From Brachypterus glaber (lineage: Eukaryota > Arthropoda > Insecta > Coleoptera > Kateretidae), in the NCBI GenBank assembly GCA_958510825.1, contig OY294051.1, positions 4,992,353 through 5,056,352 of the forward strand: a stretch of 64,000 nucleotides of DNA, given 5' to 3'. The translations under genes and the position numbers were made by a program. Below the pieces are notes generated by a model, which had not been told where the DNA came from, searched no databases, and was given only the letters and a program-made list of their open reading frames with translations. This document shows, in pieces, positions 1,511-48,878 of this stretch. Numbering within the stretch: position 1 is the first letter of the stretch; every line of letters begins with the position of its first letter.

Positions 1511-2298
1511 TATTGAATACAATACAAAAAGTTGCTTGTGATTCTAAATCGTTCCATATTTAATACTACAAATTCTCAGTCAACCTACAAAGTATCCTGT
1601 ATCTATTTATATTAACAGAAACTTTCGAAATTTACTCAATTTATCATATTTATTTTAGGGGAAATCATTAGTATTAGATTGTTAAAAATATTTACACTAC
1701 TTTCATAATTTAGTAATAACTTTAAAAAACTTTTGTCTATATTCTATTGTTTTAACAAATAATAGCTAATAAAATCTTGTCTTTTAAAACAATTAGTTAA
1801 TAATAACATTTTATTTGGGTTAGGTTTTAAATAAGAAAAAGATTTGATTTACATGACACTACAATAGGTGAATAAGAAGAATAAGAAAAATAAATAAAAT
1901 TTAATTACCTATTTATAATAATTTTAACATAAGAAATTTAGTAAAGTTGACAGTAAAATGTTTTTTTCTTCTATTTCTAACTATTTAGATAAAATATTGA
2001 ACCTTTCCAGTGATATTTCGTAAAAAAATAAGTTCTTTAGAGCACTTTAGCTTCCTTAGGATGCATTTGGAACTTATATTTTTTAACTAAATTTTAACCG
2101 TCTTTCTGGATCACCCTGTACTGTTTCTTGTGTGTTTGACAAAAACCTGTGAAATATAACATATTGTTTGTTCCGAATAGAGCAATTTCACTTAAGAGCA
2201 GTTATTTGCTCGCTATTTTACATATAATTAAAATTTGCTCTTCTATAATTTCCTGGCACTAGGAAGTGAATACCTTCACGTGAAACATCCGTCAGAGG
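1511..2298. other. AT-rich sequence, nothing recognised
   Basis: Low-complexity A/T-rich DNA with no convincing ORF. The string TCACCCTGTAC near 2112 resembles the end of a TACAGGGTGA-type mobile element, but no partner terminus was found. Confidence 0.4.
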
Positions 2299-2331
2299 TT
2301 GCCCCACTACGTTACGTGCGAAGTAGAAGAC
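2299..2331. repeat. Short dispersed repeat (copy at 3236-3269)
   Basis: The segment GCCCCACTACGTTACGTGCG and the bases after it recur at 3236-3269 with a few substitutions. The neighbouring pieces TAAAAGTTCTTT and GGGAAAAG also recur around 2870-2890. These look like shuffled fragments of one repeat family. Confidence 0.6.
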
Positions 2332-3041
2332 CCCCATTAAAGTCCGGGAAAAGCAAAGAACTTTTACCTTAAGAAGGAGCATGATGAAATCTACCGTATG
2401 CTTTGTTTGAAGTGTGAACCAACTACGGTGAGGGGCTGGTGGGGAGTGACTATTGTTTACACTTAGTACGCCTAAAGAGAGAGAAAGAATGTGTAAATTC
2501 ACAGTCTAATGTCGTAAAATGACTGACAGGGGTACAGTGCACTGGATATTTTATTGTAAATTTTAAGAAACATTAGTTCTGTATGAGTTTTATATGAACT
2601 AGTAGTTTAATTTTAATAGATTTAAATATACTATATTATTAAACATAATTATAGTATACACAATAAAGTTTTTTACATTTTTAATTTAAGTATAATGATT
2701 TGAATTCATGATAAGGTGGAAACTACGCAACATCGCTACTAGGTAGCCTGACAGTCGACTAGCGACATCTACATTTTACACCACAAAGTTGATCGCTTTT
2801 CTGTTAGTAAATAAACAAACAAAAAGATGACACATTCATAAACATTGGTCTGAAATTACTTCTTGAGGTAAAAGTTCTTTGGGGAAAAGTAAAAGACAAT
2901 TTTATAAATATCTGGCTAGGTTGCTGCTACGAAAAAACTTTTGTACCCAAGGCTGTCTAAATTTAAAAAAATAACAACTGCTGCCAACAAAATAATACTT
3001 TACCCTGTAGAGAAAAAAAAACATGATTCGAAAACACAGAA

Positions 3042-3140
3042 TTTAAAATCAAACAAAACACCTAGTTTGAAATTTGCAAACTAGATGACTCTAGTGCCGA
3101 TGTTTTGACAGGGTGCTTGCAACGTTTCATCTAGTTTCTT
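3042..3140. repeat. Dispersed repeat copy (other copy 58199-58305)
   Basis: About 95 bp starting AATTTAAAATCAAACAAAAC and containing GCCGATGTTTTGACAGGGTG is repeated almost identically 55 kb away at 58199-58305. That copy has an 8-9 bp insertion (TACAATAAT) in the middle. The imperfect hairpin CTAGTTTGAAATTTGCAAAC lies in both. Confidence 0.85.
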
Positions 3141-3445
3141 TTGAGAATTGTGCTTCAATTTATTTGTTATATGCTTATTTTACTATTGCCAAAAAATTAT
3201 TGATATAAAAAAAAAACATATTTTCCTGGACTTTTGCCCCACTACATTACGTGCGAATTAGAAGATCCCAATTACCACGCTGTAGAATAATGTGTATTTT
3301 AAATTTTGTTTTGTTATTTAGTTGTGTATATTTTTATTATCCTGTGGAATAATGTGACATGAAACTTCATATTTTTCAGTAAGTAGGCATTATTTTAAAC
3401 GATTTTTGTCTTAGTTTAATTTTTTCCGTTAAAAGTCTTTAATTG

Positions 3446-3500
3446 ACTGATACAAAAGTAATGGTCCCTTAAATGAACCCCGTGGAACACCAAAAAAAAA
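3446..3500 (-). pseudogene. LINE reverse-transcriptase scrap
   Basis: Read on the minus strand, the sequence gives GVPRGSFKGPLLL, resembling the reverse-transcriptase block GVPQGSxLGPLLF that precedes the catalytic YADD box in non-LTR retrotransposons. Only about 16 residues are recognisable before stops. Short and decayed, so the assignment is tentative. Confidence 0.35.
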
Positions 3501-3509
3501 TCTGTAATA

Positions 3510-4958
3510 GCAGACTTGATTAATCTAACAAACATTAAAAGAAAAAAAACAAAGTCACACTTCCAATTGATAACCTGCTCCTATTTTTAAGTCGGTTAAA
3601 GAGTAGTTTTTTAGGTTATTTGAATAAAAAAATATAATATAAAAAGTCACAGGAAAATTCTATTTCATTAACTCTACTAGGTACTTTTGTACCGTAGGTT
3701 GATTTAATTACTGAATTTTTATGCTAGGTATGTTCAGATCAAGGAATACTGATTTTCCTTTGATTTAGATATACTTTTTTAACTTGGATTTTTAAATCAC
3801 AAACATGTTAACAGTTAAGATTTACAAAAATGGAGGTCTCTTCTATGTCTCTTTGTAAGGATGTGCAAGTTTAAAAGATTGATCTATTGGCGGCTTCAAA
3901 TAAGGAAATACAGATATATCAATATAAATCATTAATAATATTTTAATTTCCTACTAACTGTTAACTTTATATGTATACTTAAGCCTGAAAAAGACATTGT
4001 AGTAGTTTATGAGATACTAACATTAAGACAAGAGATTGCTAGTTTTGTTTCTCTAGTGTTAGGAACTTGACAAGTAGCAAACCAAAGTCATTGTTAGCTC
4101 AAGTCAAAGACTGCGTGATATTAGGAGATCTCTTTCGAAAATTGGGGAACCCATAGACCCAGAGTAATCAGTTTTACGACAATTTGTGCTTTAGAGAAAA
4201 TATCAGATTCTGATAAACTTTTCATTGCTCAAGGAGGAAGTACTTTGGCTATTATTTTGACATCTTTATGGATAGGTTAAAACAAAATATTGGTAACATT
4301 AAAAAAACTGTTAAAGCTACTTTTATGGGGTTGACCTTGAAAGTGGAAGACTACAGGTATGTGGGCTCAGCTGCTACTTGCCAGAATCTTCAGCTTTGAT
4401 AAAAAAAAGTAAATAGTAAGGCTCTTTTGGATGTAAGTATTTATATAAACGATCTATAAACATAACAACGACAAGAATGTTAGTTCTTTTTTGCTACTAT
4501 CTAGAAGCCTTTTCCTAAGTAACAAATGACACATTCTTTACATACGCGTATACACTGAGGGCAATTATTATTACGGTCCTTTATATAAAAGTAATGTAAT
4601 GTGAATAAATTTCTAAATTAGAAATCATTATTTATTGATTTATTGAATATCAATGATTTATAGAAAATTTCAAATAAGCTTTAAGCTCCATAAACTTAAA
4701 TTAAAAATCAAATGAACACTTTTATTTATTTCCAATTATATGAGAAAATAATTGTACGAAAAAATAGTTCCTAGAAGAACAGAAAGGCTTTTCTAAAATT
4801 TTATTTGTGATAAGTTTCGTAATAAAGATATACATGTACACATTACTAGAGGCTTTAATGTGACGTTTTCTGCCAAGAAAAAGAGTGGAGACATTAAAAA
4901 AAAACTAGGGAAATGGCAAAAAGTCCAAACGTGCTTTTAGCCTTTTTCGGATATGCCA
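3510..4958. other. Unannotated AT-rich block
   Basis: No gene is recognised. Around 4090-4400 base composition is slightly higher and a short frame reads TLKVEDYRYVGSAATCQN. I cannot assign it to a family, and it is broken on both sides. Confidence 0.35.
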
Positions 4959-5477
4959 AGTTTCTTTTCTAGTTATAAATTTGTCAAAATATATTTTTTT
5001 CTATTTTGCGACTCTTATAATCACACGCATTTTGCGTGTTCTTATAGGCCCATAAGAAGTCCCTACTTTTTTTTCTGTTGGGTTGGCAACATACAAAAGC
5101 CTATCTCTTGACGTTTTGCGTGCAAATGTCAATGTCGATTTAAAGTTTAATTTTTTACAAAATGTTGTGTTTGGGTTATTTTTTACCGTGTTAAAATTGT
5201 GGACTGGTTAATTAAATATCATTTGTTCTTAGAATTTAAAACATAGTGTAAACTGTAAAGCCAACCCAAAACAAAAATCCCTAAATCAGTCATCAATTTA
5301 AATGTAAGTTTTTTAAATTTTAGAGCAAAATAGAAAAAATTGTATAAAGCACTCGTTTCATAACACGTTTTTAGAGCACTAGTACTTTAGAAAACTCGCC
5401 GTAAGCGGCTCGTTTTCTAAACTTGTACTCGTGCGCTAAAAACGTAGGTTATGAAACTAGTACTTTAATATACTATT
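4959..5477 (+). repeat. Repeat family E (copy 1) with CpG hairpin
   Basis: A ~520 bp unit begins near TTTCTATTTTGCGACTC and contains the inverted counterpart AGAGCAAAATAGAAAAA about 370 bp later, so the first part is bounded by short inverted repeats. It ends with a hairpin (5358-5455): CGTTTCATAACACG pairs with a copy reading GTTATGAAAC, with a CpG-rich loop CGCCGTAAGCGG, immediately followed by TAGTACTTTAATA. Copies lie at 51117-51640 (same strand), 49735-50000 (partial) and 21270-21655 (inverted). No ORF; non-autonomous. Confidence 0.85.
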
Positions 5478-6299
5478 AATGTTATTTATCATGACATATT
5501 TTTACAGTTCCGTATGCAAAAATAGATAAATTAAAAATAAATTATATCTCGTATATTTTTGAATCTTTTCTTATTCTCCAGTTGGTATTAATCCGGTTTT
5601 TCCTCTATCTTGTCATTACTAAATTGAGTTTTAAATAAATTGTATCGATTTTCTTTAGGCTTGTACAATCATTTAAAACCCATTTTCTTTGAAAATGTGC
5701 TCTGTAAGGGAACTAATAGTAATTGTGATATCTAATTTCAAAAAGTACCAACTAACTAACAAATAACAATTTTTACCAGAACTTTTTGTCGTCACATGAA
5801 GGCACTCTACAGATTACTATCTAATAGATACCAAGTATTTGTTAATGTATAATTTATTTAAAAGAAAGTAATAATAATAAATATTAGCTAGTAATATAAT
5901 GTCCTGGAGATGATTCAAAAAGAATGTTTAAATTAAATACACCAGATGCAATAACATAGTTAAATTAATGACAATTTTCAAAATATTAAAACTTAAACGG
6001 TAAAACTAACAGTTATAGTGAATAGATTTATGTTTTTCGTAATTACATGTATAGGTTTACACTTTGTTCTATACCGGGTGTTTCACAAAATTCTCAAAAT
6101 CCCTTAGCCAAAGGACAAGGAAATATTTGCTCTAAAATCCTATGTCTCAAAATTTATGAAAATTATCCAGAATTTATGGGTATATCTCCGTTAATCCCAT
6201 TATCTAAATGTAAAGAAACATTTTTTCCAGTTTAAACGAAATTTTGTCAATATACATAGATATGACTGTTTATATTATATCTTGCTTTATATTTAAGCC
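5478..6299. other. AT-rich block with a small repeat
   Basis: No gene is recognised. The piece around 6028-6075 (TTACATGTATAGGTTTACAC) resembles 8150-8190, so both are fragments of a dispersed repeat. 6070-6120 starts with CCGGGTGTTTCACAAAATTC, which looks like the end of a CGGGTGTTTC-type transposon. Confidence 0.35.
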
Positions 6300-13892: not shown

Positions 13893-14021
13893 ACCCAAAC
13901 ACGTACAGCGTTCTGTCAGTTATCATAGTTGGGGCATGCTTTTAAACAATTCTGCTCAAAATTCTCACTTGGGAGTCAGAATTTCGTGTTGGAAGAAAAA
14001 AATGGCCAAGTTTTCGGTTAA

Positions 14022-14560
14022 TGAATGAAATTCAAATCCAAATTCGAAATCCAAATCCCAATTCCAAATTCCAAATTCCAAATCCAAATTCCAAATCCAA
14101 ATTCCAAATTCAAAAGTCCAAATTCCAATTCCAAATCCGAATTCCAAATCCAAATTCCAAATCCAAATTCCAAATCCAAATTACAAATTCAAAAGTCCAA
14201 ATTCCAATTCCAATTCCAAATCCAAATTCCAAATCCAAATTCCAAATTCCAAATCCAAATTACAAATCCAGATTCCAAATCCAAATTCCAAATTCCAAAT
14301 CCAAATTCCAAATCCAAATTCCAAATCCAAATCCGAATTCCAATTCCAAATTCTAAATCCAAATTCCAAATTCCAAATCCAAATTACAAATTCAAAAGTC
14401 AAAATTCCAATTCCAAATCCGAATTCCAAATCCAAATTCCAAATTCCAAATCCAAATTCCAAATCCAAATTACAAATCCAGATTCCAAATCCAAATTCCA
14501 AATTCCAAATCCAAATTTCAAATCCAAAGTCCAAATCCAAATTTCAAATCTAAATTCTGG
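14022..14560. repeat. Short-period satellite built on CCAAATTCCAAAT
   Basis: About 540 bp of near-perfect (CCAAAT/TCCAAAT)n, mixing 6-7 bp sub-units (AATTCC, AAATCC) into a higher-order pattern. Periodic variants such as TTCAAAAGTCCAAATTCC at about 95-190 bp spacing suggest block duplication. The strand is sharply asymmetric: C on the top strand, almost no G. Long frames on both strands (PNSKSKFQIQ-like; FGFGIWIWNL-like) are products of the repeat and not genes. Confidence 0.95.
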
Positions 14561-14914
14561 AATTCTCACCAAAACGTACCTACATGATCACTTAATATTT
14601 TAAAATATTTCACAAGCAAAATTTGTATACAAGTCTGTTTAATCTCAAATCTACAAAGATAAATCAAAAAACTTAAATATTCAAAAATAAAAAATAAAAA
14701 ACAGAATAATTTGCAAGGGCAGAATATTAAGTAATAAATCAAGTTGGCTGTTCCAGGTCATTTAATTCACGTAAACGTCTAAACCTAACTTTTATCTAAA
14801 ACAATGTAAAACTTAAAAAGTAATAAATCACTGGGAAAATGTATCAGGTGGATTGTAATTATTGCGCGGGAATTAATTGAATACACGTTTGGACCACACC
14901 GCGTGAATATAGCT

Positions 14915-26105: not shown

Positions 26106-26110
26106 GGCAC

Positions 26111-26524
26111 AATGGAGCTCTTTACAACTAGAATTATGAAACAAAAGACGTCTACCCTATCTCTATCTCATTTGTGCTACACTTTCCAGCCAACCAAATA
26201 AATACTGTATTTGTTTTTCATACAACAAATACAGTATTTATTTGGTTGGCCGGAAAGTGTAGCACTGAGTGGCAGGAACGAACATAGCTAATGTGAATCT
26301 GTAGAATAAGATAATTCTACTAAAATTTAGTTGGAGCCAGTAATTTCTTTAATAAAAATAATATAGTTACACTTTTCGCCCGGCCAAGTAAATATTGTAT
26401 TTGTTCAACAAAGAACAAATACAGAATTTGTTTGGTTGGGTGGAAGTGGGAGTGTATGTATGTCTTCTATCCTTTTTGGGTAGAACTTTTGTCTCTGTCT
26501 AATCTAACGGGATAAATCGCCATA
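26111..26524 (+). mobile_element. Double-hairpin MITE (family H), copy 1
   Basis: Two back-to-back hairpins. The first is ACACTTTCCAGCCAACCAAA...TTTGGTTGGCCGGAAAGTGT with an AAATACTGTATTTG stem. The second is CCGGCCAAGTAAATATTGTA and its partner with CAAATACAGAATTTG. The outer ends AAAGACGTCTACCC and GGGTAGAACTTTTG are themselves inverted. An inverted second copy lies at 48466-48878, 22 kb away in the same intron. Confidence 0.9.
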
Positions 26525-27785: not shown

Positions 27786-27852
27786 AAAAAAAAAAAAAAA
27801 AAAAAAAATTAAAGTAGAACGATTTTGTATTTCAGCATATATATTTAAAATT

Positions 27853-27891
27853 GGCCTAGCGCTTTCGATCAAAAGATCATCATCAGGGCTT
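27853..27891 (-). ncRNA. Hammerhead-like motif, left palindrome arm
   Basis: Mirror copy of the motif at 28146-28184, read on the minus strand: CTGATGA, one extra U, GATC-TTTT-GATC stem-loop, GAAA, self-complementary AGCGCT and cleavage base A. Confidence 0.5.
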
Positions 27892-28145
27892 AGCTTCGTC
27901 AGAGCTTATTACAATAAAACGAGAGGTAATTTAAAAATATGGGGCCATAACAGTTAAACGGTAGTACATATTAAAATAACAGATAAATAAATAAAAAGTT
28001 TTGACATGACAATTAAAATTTTAATTGTCATGTCAAAACTTTTTATTTATTTATCTGTTATTTTAATATGTACTACCGTTTAACTGTTATGGCCCCATAT
28101 TTTTAAATTACCTCTCGTTTTATTGTAATAAGCTCTGACGAAGCT

Positions 28146-28184
28146 AAGCCCTGATGATGATCTTTTGATCGAAAGCGCTAGGCC
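28146..28184 (+). ncRNA. Hammerhead-like motif, right palindrome arm
   Basis: CTGATGA (28151-28157) matches the invariant core. It is followed by one extra U, stem GATC/GATC with a UUUU loop, GAAA (28171-28174), an AGCGCT palindromic helix III and A28180 at the cleavage position. Helix I is only GCC/GGC (3 bp), so activity is doubtful. The layout matches the copies at 16597 and 42865. Confidence 0.5.
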
Positions 28185-28377
28185 AATTTTAAATATATAT
28201 GCTGAAATACAAAATCGTTCTACTTTAATTTTTTTTTTTTTTTTTTTTAAACAGCATACAAGTCAAAAACAATAATTATTTTTTTTAAATACATATATAC
28301 TTTTCTTACTGAGCTGGAAGAAATAGTATATTTCTAATCTAATAACAAAATAATATATAATAAAAATTTTTCATATC

Positions 28378-30065
28378 AATCAAATCTGTCGTATCTCAGC
28401 AATAGAAGGCAGTACACAGCAATAAATGGAAAAAAAATCAAATATGAGGATGGTGAACAGTGGCGTGCCACAAGGCTCTGTGCTTGGTCCGCTGCTGTTC
28501 TTGATCTTCATAAATGATATTAAAGCTGCGTTACCATATTGGGAAAACCTTCTATTTGCTGATTCAAATATGAGGATGGTGAACAGTGGCGTGCCACAAG
28601 GCTCTGTGCTTGGTCCGCTGCTGTTCTTGATCTTCATAAATGATATTAAAGCTGCGTTACCATATTGGGAAAACCTTCTATTTGCTGATTCAAATATGAG
28701 GATGGTGAACAGTGGCGTGCCACAAGGCTCTGTGCTTGGTCCGCTGCTGTTCTTGATCTTCATAAATGATATTAAAGCTGCGTTACCATATTGGGAAAAC
28801 CTTCTATTTGCTGATTCAAATATGAGGATGGTGAACAGTGGCGTGCCACAAGGCTCTGTGCTTGGTCCGCTGCTGTTCTTGATCTTCATAAATGATATTA
28901 AAGCTGCGTTACCATATTGGGAAAACCTTCTATTTGCTGATTCAAATATGAGGATGGTGAACAGTGGCGTGCCACAAGGCTCTGTGCTTGGTCCGCTGCT
29001 GTTCTTGATCTTCATAAATGATATTAAAGCTGCGTTACCATATTGGGAAAACCTTCTATTTGCTGATTCAAATATGAGGATGGTGAACAGTGGCGTGCCA
29101 CAAGGCTCTGTGCTTGGTCCGCTGCTGTTCTTGATCTTCATAAATGATATTAAAGCTGCGTTACCATATTGGGAAAACCTTCTATTTGCTGATTCAAATA
29201 TGAGGATGGTGAACAGTGGCGTGCCACAAGGCTCTGTGCTTGGTCCGCTGCTGTTCTTGATCTTCATAAATGATATTAAAGCTGCGTTACCATATTGGGA
29301 AAACCTTCTATTTGCTGATTCAAATATTATATTAAACTTGAAAGATTTTCAGCAGACTTTGAAGCTCATGGATGAGGGGCGGTCGAGTGCAAAAGATTGG
29401 TTTCTGGCAAACAGGCTCTCATTAAATAATAATAAAACCCTTGACATATTCTTTACTCATAGACTTCTTTATGAATTTTGTAACCCAGATACAGTTAAAT
29501 ACCTCGGTCTAAACTTTGATCAAAACTTGAACTGGAAGCAGCACACTAGTGCTCTTGCAGGATCATTATCAAAATCAATTTTTGTATTTCGGTCGCTTGT
29601 AAAGATGGTTTCCTTAGAGGTTTTTAAAACGGCATATTTTGCTTTATTTGAGTCTAAAGTAACCTATGGTCTGATGGTCTGGGGTCACGCAACAGGGGGA
29701 GTCGAAAGGCTGTTTGGACTGCAAAGAAAACTTATTAGAGTTATAAAGGGACTAGGGTATCGAGATAAGGTTAAAAAAACTTTTATTGAACTAGATATCC
29801 TAACCGTACCATGTCTTTACATCTTTATAACTTTAGTGTATGTCAAAGAAAATTTAGGTAAATATACTCTACAGTCTAAAAATCTTGAAAATACAAGGTC
29901 GAGCAACATTAGGTTGCCAAAAATAAGACTTGAGAGTAGTAAATTCGGTTCAATTTTTTTTAATTTTTTTGCCAGTTCGCGTTAGAAACCTACCGCTAAG
30001 TTCTTTTAAAACTCAAGTTAAAGCTCTGTGTAACTTGAATAAAAAAATACTGGTAAGCAGAAAAT
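28378..30065 (+). pseudogene. LINE (non-LTR) retrotransposon reverse transcriptase, 5'-truncated and mutated
   Basis: RT copies element RNA into the target by primed synthesis. 28393-28430 reads YLSNRRQYTAING, then an extra base in an A8 run shifts frame. The frame from 28426 continues MRMVNSGVPQGSVLGPLLF, LIFINDIKAALPYWENLLFA (seven times), then SAKDWFLANRLSLNNNKT, VKYLGLNFDQNLNWKQH, ALFESKVTYGLMVWG and KLIRVIKGLGYRD, to a stop at 29983. The FADD catalytic box is FADS: one Asp codon is missing. A second frameshift in the T-run near 29955 separates VRNLPLSSFKTQVKAL. No endonuclease domain is present. A (TG)n run follows at 30117-30137. Jockey/CR1-like appearance; clade not settled. Confidence 0.93.
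28438..29319 (+). repeat. Seven in-frame, apparently identical 126 bp copies of an RT motif
   Basis: Each unit encodes 42 residues from SNMRMVNSGVPQGSVLGP to YWENLLFAD. Seven consecutive units keep the frame and look identical in DNA; the opposite-strand frame is also periodic without a break. The 6 bp TCAAAT occurs at both outer boundaries, the likely microhomology for the expansion. Confidence 0.97.
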
Positions 30066-35532: not shown

Positions 35533-35573
35533 TGGGCAATATAAATAAAAAATTAGCAAAAGCTTTTTCTTAA
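35533..35573 (+). repeat. 41 bp inverted repeat flanking the nuclease-USP locus (left)
   Basis: TGGGCAATATAAATAAAAAA... to TTTTTCTTAA matches, inverted and without gaps, 37535-37575 (36 of 41 bases). The right-hand copy overlaps the beginning of the fusion frame. In the left copy ATG at 35532 would read MGNINKKLAKAFS and then stop, i.e. the same peptide start. Confidence 0.85.
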
Positions 35574-35592
35574 TTTTTTTAAGTAAAAGCTA

Positions 35593-35629
35593 ATTTTTTT
35601 TTTTTTGTTTTTTTTTTTTAAATTTTATT
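35593..35629 (-). terminator. Polyadenylation signal and oligo-A tail of the fusion locus
   Basis: Reading on the minus strand, 108 nt after the stop codon comes AATAAA (35624-35629), and four bases later two A12-14 runs separated by one C (35593-35619). The layout is that of a reverse-transcribed polyadenylated RNA. The spacing between signal and tail is shorter than usual. Confidence 0.7.
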
Positions 35630-35737
35630 TTTATATTAATAGTATAGAAATATACATGTTAATTAAAAAAAAAATAATTAACAATCAAGTAACAAATAAT
35701 AGTAACAAATAAGTAAAAAAAAAAGAAATAAATAAAC

Positions 35738-37576
35738 TCAAGTATATGATTTTTGACTTTCTTGTTCGTACAATAATATGTAAGCATTCCCTGATACGAT
35801 GGATGTTGGTGAAATTGAAGATACCCTAGAGTCGTTGTATTCGTGCCACGTATGATTATAGGGATGTTTACAATAGGCGGTGTAGTGTCCGCTATACGTG
35901 GTACCACTGTGATTTGAAATGGCGTATAAGTTGTATTTGGAGGGTGCAACGGACTCTGCTGCATAATTGCTCATATCTAATTCTTCTAGGGGGAAGTCTA
36001 CGGTGACTTTGAGCTTTCTTTGAAACTGTGTCATCGGGGAGAAGCGTTTAAGGTGAATTACTAATATTTTTGGGAATTTTTGAATTCTAAAGAATTTTGT
36101 GCATTTTCTGCGCTTTTTGCATTTTGAACATGTAGGTTTTTCATCACCGTCCAACGATTCTTCCCGTGTGAAGGATTCCAAACAATGTGATAAACTTAAT
36201 TGACCGGTGTGTTGTGGAAGAGAGAGAGAAAGGTCCCAGAATGGTTCGAATGTGACGGAACAATGGCTGCAATAGGTGCATTTGAGGGTGGATTTCAGTT
36301 GTCCGACGAAGAGGTCCAAAATGCGAGAGTCGTCCATCCGGAGGTATCTGGACCATGATTCGGCAGATTTTTCATTATCAGTTAATTTTTCATCTATTTT
36401 GGTAAAAATAGGTTTAGGTTTTTCCGTTACCCTGTTAACGTCCTCGTGAAGTCCCTCTAAAAGGTACCGCAGAAATTCTTGTGCGTCCTGTTGTTTGTAG
36501 TCTGTAAATTGGGGGGCGAAAATCTGGATTTGGCTCTTGAAAGAAACCGTGTTTACTACCCGTTCAGATGAATCTTCTGACCACAACTGTTTTATAACAT
36601 CGGCAAATGTCTTAATTAAAGCTCCATGCATACTTGATATATTGGTGTTGATGTCCTGCATATAGCTGTCCTTCTTTAAGTATTCCAACAAAAGTTTCGT
36701 GTTCGAAAGGCATGTAATGACCGAGTTCATGAAACAGGTATTCCCGATATTTTTTAACCCGTTAAGACCCAGAGTTTTGACTGGACTTCCGACCTCTGGC
36801 TTATTGTTTGTGATATAGTTTTTCTCGCTGTTATCATCAATATCACTGTAATTTAAACTGTTGTTGGTGTTGTATAATTTATCATCGTTCATTTCAGAAT
36901 CATTATCAAATGTTCCCAAGACACTTATAGCATTACCTCTTTGGATGGCCATACTTATGCGTTGTAGAAAGTAAAGACCTTCCAAAGGGTTGCCGGTGGA
37001 ATCTATCAAGCGTCTACAAATGTCTTTAAGAAAGGCCTTAGTGATTGGACCATATGAACCATAAGTTTCAATAGCTATGGGAACAAATTCATAGTCTGTT
37101 GATAAAAATTTGTATCTCTTGATCTTAATGTTTTCTGCTCGTTCTGCAGCAGAGCCAGCCTTTTCAGAGTTAATATGAAGATAAGAGGGAGCCACAGTAT
37201 CCACACAGGTAAAGTCCCACACCAAGCATTTCCCTCTTTTAAATGGAACCAAAGTCATTCCGTCTGGTCTTTTGCCATCGATTCGTGCCATTAAACCTGG
37301 AGGTTCTAAAACAGGTTGTAGATCAATAATAGCTAAGGCTCTCTTTATTAGGTTGTTTACTTCTTTGTGTCTAGATAATCTGCCTTTGCTATATCTACAA
37401 GAGAGGCCATGTGTTCCAGATGTATCAACATTTTCACCACAAATACACAAATGGTGGACAACAGTTTTGGTAGATCCCATTCTCAAATTAATAGCTATTC
37501 TAAGTAAGTTTCTATTTTGGTATACATAACATTTTTGAGAAAAAGCTTTTGCTAAAATTTTATTCACATTGCCCAA
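35738..37576 (-). CDS. Fusion ORF: retrotransposon nuclease-like domain + USP2-type deubiquitinase
   Basis: One unbroken frame of 612 codons. Residues ~1-222: CCHC-like finger C44xC...H56..C60, SRH (68-70), GKRPDGMTLVP (PD at 104-105), LVWDFTCVD (D121), ETYG, LQRISMAIQRGNAISVLGTF. This is the C-terminal PD-(D/E)XK-like nuclease region seen after reverse transcriptase in some retroelements. Residues 223-268 are an Asn/Asp-rich linker. Residues 270-611 form a complete ubiquitin-specific protease most like USP2: GNTCFMN (Cys281), YKQQDAQEFLRYLLEGLHED, zinc Cys433/436 and 483/486, FPKILVIHLKRFS, YSGHYTAYC (His564), YNDSRV (Asn581). All catalytic residues are kept and there are no introns. The frame is open to 37636 without ATG; codon 1 is TTG and the first ATG is codon 33 (37480). 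Most likely a chimeric retrogene; a TE-borne protease is the alternative. Expression unknown. Confidence 0.9.
   Translation of the reverse strand: MGNVNKILAKAFSQKCYVYQNRNLLRIAINLRMGSTKTVVHHLCICGENVDTSGTHGLSCRYSKGRLSRHKEVNNLIKRALAIIDLQPVLEPPGLMARIDGKRPDGMTLVPFKRGKCLVWDFTCVDTVAPSYLHINSEKAGSAAERAENIKIKRYKFLSTDYEFVPIAIETYGSYGPITKAFLKDICRRLIDSTGNPLEGLYFLQRISMAIQRGNAISVLGTFDNDSEMNDDKLYNTNNSLNYSDIDDNSEKNYITNNKPEVGSPVKTLGLNGLKNIGNTCFMNSVITCLSNTKLLLEYLKKDSYMQDINTNISSMHGALIKTFADVIKQLWSEDSSERVVNTVSFKSQIQIFAPQFTDYKQQDAQEFLRYLLEGLHEDVNRVTEKPKPIFTKIDEKLTDNEKSAESWSRYLRMDDSRILDLFVGQLKSTLKCTYCSHCSVTFEPFWDLSLSLPQHTGQLSLSHCLESFTREESLDGDEKPTCSKCKKRRKCTKFFRIQKFPKILVIHLKRFSPMTQFQRKLKVTVDFPLEELDMSNYAAESVAPSKYNLYAISNHSGTTYSGHYTAYCKHPYNHTWHEYNDSRVSSISPTSIVSGNAYILLYEQESQKSYT
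37535..37575 (-). repeat. 41 bp inverted repeat flanking the nuclease-USP locus (right)
   Basis: Partner of 35533-35573. Either terminal repeats of a ~2.04 kb element, or an inverted duplication of the 5' end of the inserted copy. No clear target-site duplication was found outside the pair. Confidence 0.85.
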
Positions 37577-37639
37577 TCGGGCAATTGGCCAATACTCTAC
37601 ATTCTGGTAGATATTGAATATGAATATTAAAAAGTCCTA

Positions 37640-48460: not shown

Positions 48461-48465
48461 GGCAA

Positions 48466-48878
48466 TGGCGATTTCTCCCGTTAGATTAGACAAGGAAAAA
48501 AGTTCTACCCAAAAAGGATAGAAGACATACATACACTCCCACTTCCACCCAACCAAACAAATTCTCTATTTGTTCTTTGTTGAACAAATACAATATTTAC
48601 TTGGCCGGGCGAAAACTGTAACTATAGTATTTTTATTAAAGAAATTACTGGCGCCATTTAAATTTTAGTAGAATTATCTTATTCTACAGATTCACATTAG
48701 CTATGTTCGTTCGTGCCCCTCAGTGATACACTTTCCGGCCAACCAAATAAATACTGTATTTGTTGTATGAAAAACAAATACAGTATTTATTTGGTTGGCT
48801 GGAAAGTGTAGCACAAATGAGATAGAGATAGGGTAGACGTCTTTTGTTTCATAATTCTAGTTGTAGAGAGCTCCATTG
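48466..48878 (-). mobile_element. Double-hairpin MITE (family H), copy 2 (inverted)
   Basis: Reverse-orientation copy of 26111-26524 with the same two hairpins (CAAATACAATATTTACTTGG; ACACTTTCCGGCCAACCAAA). Divergence is a few percent. The pair forms a 22 kb-separated inverted repeat within the intron. Confidence 0.9.

Follow-up and report, generated by a model that had tools for sequence, protein, structure and literature searches.

A recently active R2-like LINE family of the beetle Brachypterus glaber has a host-derived USP2 deubiquitinase at the end of its open reading frame

An open frame joining an R2-like endonuclease to USP2

We have analysed a stretch of 64,000 nucleotides on contig C16 of the 648-Mb Brachypterus glaber assembly; "the window" is used here for this whole stretch. 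Between positions 35533 and 37576 it contains the following features.

35533..35593, no strand: left half of a palindromic MITE-like target repeat (arm 35533-35585; 53-nt arms, near-palindrome)
35575..35591, no strand: candidate target-site duplication, copy 1 (14/17 identical to 37531-37547; not clean)
35594..37517, minus strand: 5'-truncated copy of an RT-RLE-USP2 LINE (98.7-99.6% identity to L038, L024, L025 and L023)
35594..35619, minus strand: poly(A) tail A12-C-A13 of the inserted copy, read from the sequence (element homology ends at about 35610-35630)
35624..35629, minus strand: AATAAA directly ahead of the tail, read from the sequence
35738..37576, minus strand: open frame, RLE joined to USP2 (frame analysis, Pfam, PDB match)
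35753..36775, minus strand: USP2-type deubiquitinase domain, residues 268-608 (Pfam, PDB match, alignment)
36776..36910, minus strand: linker and last stretch of the captured USP2 N-terminal region, residues 223-267 (beetle USP2 alignment)
36911..37516, minus strand: restriction-like endonuclease (RLE) with CCHC knuckle, residues 21-222 (relatives, conserved columns, R2 profile alignment)
37518..37575, no strand: right half of the palindromic target repeat (arm 37523-37575; inverted repeat, homology edge)
37531..37547, no strand: candidate target-site duplication, copy 2 (13 nt outside the element edge at 37517)

The open frame runs for 612 codons without a stop; its start codon is TTG, and the earliest in-frame ATG is codon 33. 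Pfam places a UCH domain at residues 273-603 (231 bits) and gave no match to the N-part, which holds the CCHC, RPDG and WDFTC motifs; NCBIfam gave no useful match. The closest solved structure is human USP2 (E 2e-115, over residues 268-608). The catalytic residues Cys281, His564 and Asn581 and the zinc-binding Cys pairs 433/436 and 483/486 of a USP2-type enzyme are all present in the window frame, and do not vary when it is aligned with 13 beetle USP2-type proteins. At 39 RLE columns with at least 97% conservation among 118 relatives, the window frame shows no change. An AlphaFold model of the RLE-USP2 chimera had a mean pLDDT of 40.9 and was left out of the evidence. An initial annotation of this DNA had described the three motifs and a complete USP in one 612-codon frame, with AATAAA and an oligo-A tract on the 3' side; Pfam, the PDB match and the alignment confirmed the first, and the signal and tract were both located on the minus strand.

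A young insertion inside a palindromic repeat

From 37517 to about 35610-35630, and no further, the window copy matches L038, L024, L025 and L023 at 98.7-99.6% identity, and its USP part is separated from that of L024 by a dS of 0.014 (NG86). Since the identity of about 99% to this subfamily is limited to the stretch between 37517 and the poly(A), we are dealing with a LINE insertion that is young, 5'-truncated and polyadenylated, and that lies inside a small palindromic MITE-like repeat. The 5' cut at 37517 falls just before the RLE, so the RT is missing and the first codons of the frame (about 17, situated in the right-hand repeat arm) are foreign to the element.

The inverted repeats at 35533-35585 and 37523-37575, which the initial annotation had not mentioned, are 53 nt long and 81% complementary. 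When the flanks are joined they form an 87-nt near-palindrome, self-complementary at 72/87 positions, and alternative joints score equally well or better (72/82, for instance). A TIR DNA transposon with RLE-USP cargo, suggested by these 53-nt repeats that exactly flank the frame, is rejected: homology to the full-length elements stops at 37517 on one side and in the poly(A) on the other, short of or inside the repeats. Moreover, the inner end parts are absent elsewhere in the window at 3 mismatches while the outer part occurs at chance level, no transposase is found, the sole ORF of at least 150 aa between the repeats being the RLE-USP frame, and the 53-nt repeats were not seen by eye in the flanks of full-length copies elsewhere, so that we give the transposon practically no credence. 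A 17-nt direct repeat (14/17 identical, a match reached by 2 of 20,000 random pairs of 17-mers from the window) is a candidate target-site duplication that stays unproven, lying 13 nt off the element edge in flanks that the palindrome itself makes alike. The target sites of further copies were inspected by eye only.

Because the window copy is young, its intactness says nothing about selection at this copy, and for the same reason less weight falls on a simulation in which 60 random changes, replacing about 7% of the residues, left the frame stop-free in about 4% of 400 runs. An intact frame and an RLE unchanged at all 39 conserved columns are what a domesticated host gene (RLE-USP2) under its own selection would display; such a gene is nevertheless very improbable here, as about 99% identity to full-length elements and a dS of 0.014 make the copy too young, and its native start is missing, the first ATG being at codon 33.

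Several other repeats were observed in the window. The plus-strand ORF 28426-29985 (519 aa) contains, at 28438-29327, seven perfect tandem copies of a 126-nt LINE RT piece, which are in frame and give 7 RVT_1 stretches. A perfect 230-nt inverted repeat without spacer at 27789-28248 is either a recent fold-back or an assembly artefact. An array of a 13-nt unit (AAATCCAAATTCC-like) at 13949-14636 is partly open as a 192-aa ORF (14025-14603), and two 414-nt copies in opposite orientation, 22 kb apart and 97% complementary (26110-26523 and 48465-48878), probably represent a repeat family.

Full-length elements in the Brachypterus genome

The UCH profile has at least 147 matches in the genome, a lower bound for repeats that includes host USP genes, and a beetle USP2 query gave 58 scored matches, 53 of them stop-free. 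Twenty loci, chosen mostly for long frames, were fetched for inspection. RT, RLE and USP2 share a single frame of 1126-1495 aa in 11 of the 20 (L016-L021 and L023-L027), with Pfam RVT_1 present in L016 and L024. At L028-L030, RT and RLE are joined in one frame to a different USP, the RT being partial in L029 and L030, and at L031 and L033 the parts are spread over separate frames; L022, L032 and L035 have a USP without RT or RLE, and L034 has no frame with any of these parts. L016 and L017 do not differ at any of 4756 nt, L018 reaches 99.98% identity over 4763 nt, and L019-L021 show 99.5-99.7% identity. Copies of the family lie at differing sites, and inspection of the flanks revealed several A-rich or poly(A) 3' ends. 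Near-identical full-length copies at different sites mean that the RT-RLE-USP2 LINE is a multi-copy, recently active retrotransposon family.

These copies decide between the two readings of the initial annotation, an element with an acquired deubiquitinase or a chimeric retrogene made by template switch at this locus. The first stands, as full-length RT-RLE-USP2 elements are present in many genome copies, and the nuclease-USP junction is shared by full-length elements at other sites. The second falls: host sequence lying 3' of element sequence and ending in a poly(A) tail is what a switch at the window insertion would give, but the occurrence of this junction in full-length elements elsewhere refutes a one-off chimera, whose probability we regard as next to nil, and the junction is old and common to the family.

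At L022 (G000:C10:17372000-17380900), a plus-strand frame of 1286 aa (1908-5765) joins ankyrin repeats and an apparent membrane channel (TRPA-like by eye) to a USP2 that is 95% identical to the L024 USP2. Either another gene has gained a USP from an element here, or the frame is a chimeric pseudogene.

Assignment to R2-like LINEs

Residues 21-222 or so of the frame match 842 database proteins, with 45-56% identity among the matches listed. All 120 relatives among the matches listed have the RLE domain in common; 112 of these 120 end no more than 20 residues past it, 5 end 21-60 residues past it and 3 are longer. A profile alignment to R2 runs from the RT through the RLE (E 8.2e-23). The predicted model of one relative, P0012, aligns structurally to R2 over residues 122-912; this range alone is no proof of an RLE match, because some of the LINE-1 ORF2p alignments extend to residue 912 as well, and the R2 profile alignment is the better evidence.

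As in R2 and other RLE-type non-LTR retrotransposons, the RT lies upstream in the same ORF, a CCHC and PD-D endonuclease follows it, and multiple copies with poly(A) or A-rich 3' ends, some of them 5'-truncated, occupy differing sites. Unlike R2 proper, the window family has a C-terminal USP and the window insertion lies in a palindromic repeat outside 28S rDNA (an Rfam scan of the window found no rRNA and no other match, and a tRNA scan of it found none); the other sites were seen as flanks only.

Viral contigs searched with the RT-RLE alignment and with P0298 (a fusion described below) gave no relatives. RT-RLE relatives of 24-30% identity were found at seven loci (L001-L007) on contigs filed under bacterial MAGs, which are probably eukaryotic contamination; Pfam on the long ORFs of three of the seven (L001, L002 and L004) gave RT only and no USP. 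Among single proteins, P0001 (26 residues of a DM domain and a repeated RLE) was rejected as a gene-model join, the long tail of P0104 resembles another RT by eye, and P0250 has no RLE.

Source and evolution of the captured USP2

The initial annotation supposed a spliced parental USP2, and such a host gene lies on contig C18, with N-terminal exons and a catalytic region in six intron-separated pieces. The elements lack the host USP2 introns; their USP part is an intronless copy of a spliced host gene, as in a processed retrogene, and its source was therefore spliced mRNA. The closest database proteins to the window USP are beetle USP2s (71-80% identity in most named beetle rows), with which it shares all catalytic and zinc residues; in contrast, the host gene contains introns and an N-terminal region of its own, and no RLE occurs in the database USP2s scanned. 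In a thinned tree of 34 rows, the window USP falls inside a set of 17 rows (support 97/98), which we take to be cucujiform, one row being unnamed. L016 carries extra USP2 N-terminal sequence (VNNF..IPT.DYKNDENS, by eye against the host exon) that is absent from L024 and from the window, so the two families differ in the amount of USP2 that they carry. In Leptinotarsa decemlineata, the USP2-like P0205 and the USP10-like P0284 (10 member sequences) are fast-evolving, with end branches of 0.24 and 0.44; both may be element-borne or retrocopies.

The USP dN/dS (NG86) is 0.28 between L016 and L024 (dN 0.132, dS 0.481, 346 codons), families that may have swapped the domain, 0.08-0.12 between the host gene and the elements (0.12 for L016 and 0.11 for L024, with a dS of 0.75), and 0.26 between L024 and the window at a dS of 0.014. 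The value of 0.28 between two families shows that USP2 is under constraint inside the element. Where the initial annotation had attributed the retained residues to selection or recency, both hold, selection acting on the element lineage and the insertion being young.

Between L016 and L024, dS is about 2 in the RT and 4.8 in the RLE (both saturated), as against 0.48 in the USP: the USP joined at least one family after their RT-RLE parts had split. This later arrival would be either a second capture or a transfer between elements. At positions where the host agrees with P0121, 5 derived residues are shared by L016 and L024, a further 40 changes are confined to L016 and 23 to L024, and 7 positions have changed in both but to different residues; at other positions, the host state is seen in both (18), in L016 alone (10) or in L024 alone (1). 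These counts do not settle between one capture and two.

Compared with 117 USP2 relatives (3 of 120 rows were dropped: P0177, P0205 and one under the length or score limit), the window USP is changed at 11/148 invariant, 4/37 nearly invariant and 46/96 variable columns. Its 15 changes at the 185 conserved columns, against a median of 0 and a maximum of 6 in host-type USP2 proteins, suggest that its specificity may differ. An excess over all 117 host-type USP2s would also be expected if the USP were a functionless passenger of the element. We consider this improbable, given the dN/dS between the families, the 53 of 58 copies that are open over the domain, the retained catalytic residues and the repeated capture of the same enzyme class described below.

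Other deubiquitinases captured by R2-like LINEs

The different USP of L028 (G000:C2:20017500-20026400), a Pfam UCH match, lies behind a CAP-Gly domain in one 1537-aa frame that also has RT and RLE. The best PDB match of this USP is USP35 (E 3.8e-59), and the CAP-Gly domain scores 26.9 bits in Pfam (cut-off 26.5) and matches CYLD in the PDB (E 7.9e-13). The L028 family, which also includes L029-L031 and L033, thus has pieces resembling two host deubiquitinase genes in one element, the CAP-Gly having been examined in L028.

Fusions were also found among database proteins. P0092, a Leptinotarsa gene model, joins an RLE to the first 60 or so residues of a USP (PDB matches USP35, E 1.6e-9, then USP7, 1.7e-7), and P0059, P0243 and P0298 are RLE fusions with USP10-type domains, P0298 having RT, RLE and USP in a single frame. 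P0059 and P0092 were found with the RLE part by itself as query, and two of three long-tailed relatives among the matches listed are USPs. The Cys, His and Asp/Asn motifs are intact in the USP10-type fusions.

The relationships of these fusions were examined in thinned trees (47 rows for USP10, 52 for the RLE). The hypothesis that all three USP10 parts form a single clade was rejected (AU p 0.0005), as was a clade of P0059 with P0243 (AU p 0.003) or of P0243 with P0298 (0.014). P0243 groups with ladybirds, at no starred fork, and P0298 has a very long branch and an unsure origin. For the RLE, a clade uniting the window with the four database fusions is rejected (p 1.8e-7), though P0059 and P0092 share a starred set with two unfused elements (AU 0.19 for P0059 with P0092). 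The identity of the genes and the clade test on P0059 and P0243 indicate that arthropod R2-like LINEs have captured USPs at least four times (USP2, USP35-type and, twice, USP10-type), as judged from these sequences always at the C-terminus of RT-RLE.

At 114 conserved USP10 columns, P0059 has 4 changes, P0243 6 and P0298 15 (95 relatives, with Coccinella reduced to a single copy and P0284 and P0311 omitted: median 0, maximum 6), and at 39 conserved RLE columns P0059 has 0, P0243 1, P0298 4 and P0092 5 (118 relatives: median 0, maximum 3). The PD motif itself is altered in P0092 (D105N) and in P0243 (P104V). Some of the fused endonucleases may be impaired.

In Coccinella septempunctata, at least 20 USP10-like proteins among the matches listed (part of P0316-P0352), encoded on contigs of one length (34,009,066), amount to a large USP10 amplification; these proteins gave no RLE match.

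Discussion

Our reading, to which we give a probability of roughly 0.88, is that the locus is a young truncated copy of a multi-copy R2-like LINE whose ORF ends in a host-derived USP2, and that the USP would shield the ribonucleoprotein of the element. USP2 was copied from a spliced host mRNA onto the end of the single long ORF of a LINE, and the window copy inserted into a palindromic MITE-like repeat, losing the RT and the native start. Judging from its sequence, the USP is likely active, and its likely role is to keep the complex of the element from being destroyed in a ubiquitin-dependent way: as part of the same protein as RT and RLE, the predicted enzyme would deubiquitinate the ribonucleoprotein to which it belongs and thereby shield it from host E3 ligases and the proteasome.

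LINEs with accessory domains are already known. The NeSL elements and Utopia-1_TSP are RLE-type LINEs that carry Ulp1-like proteases, cysteine proteases of the ubiquitin/SUMO kind; as described in PMC4640811, these are nematode elements whose protease is Ulp1 and not USP, and N-terminal whereas our USP is C-terminal. Insect R1/TRAS LINEs likewise have a foreign enzyme at the C-terminus of the polyprotein, which according to the account in PMC4686597 (also PMC6338049) is an SF1 helicase of viral origin and not a host deubiquitinase, in elements of the R1 clade. Titles and abstracts in the literature gave no USP or other deubiquitinase in a LINE, and so no C-terminal host USP either, although this negative argues only weakly for a true absence.

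Ubiquitin-dependent restriction of LINEs is known for human and mouse L1, and we know of no such restriction in insects. In human cells L1 ORF2p is described as degraded through TRIM41 (PMC10716122); TEX19.1 and, likely, UBR2 are described as taking part when L1 ORF1p is polyubiquitylated and degraded (PMC5570191). By analogy, a tethered USP would counter an L1-like ubiquitin restriction.

The main rival to protection in cis is a role in trans, in which the USP would act on host targets such as ubiquitinated histones, repair factors at the target site or a silencing factor. USPs from three host genes (USP2, USP10-type and USP35-type) need not share a substrate, and one element also took a CYLD-like CAP-Gly domain, both of which would fit such a role; the RT-RLE tether, on the other hand, favours a substrate at the element's own complex, and we regard action in trans as possible, though unlikely. 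As for cis-acting protection more widely, we lean, with some reserve, towards the view that R2-like LINEs of arthropods have repeatedly fused host USPs (USP2; USP35-type with a CYLD-like CAP-Gly; USP10-type at least twice) as a counter-defence.

What would this mean for the biology of these elements and their hosts? That one enzyme class was captured several times, in one position and by one kind of element, suggests a common selective force, the simplest candidate being a ubiquitin-dependent restriction of LINEs. The full-length, near-identical copies in Brachypterus make the idea of protection in cis testable, and the finding is relevant to the way in which mobile elements acquire host genes by way of spliced mRNA. 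If the proposal is true, insects would restrict LINEs through ubiquitin ligases, and deubiquitination would be a recurrent, selected function of mobile elements.
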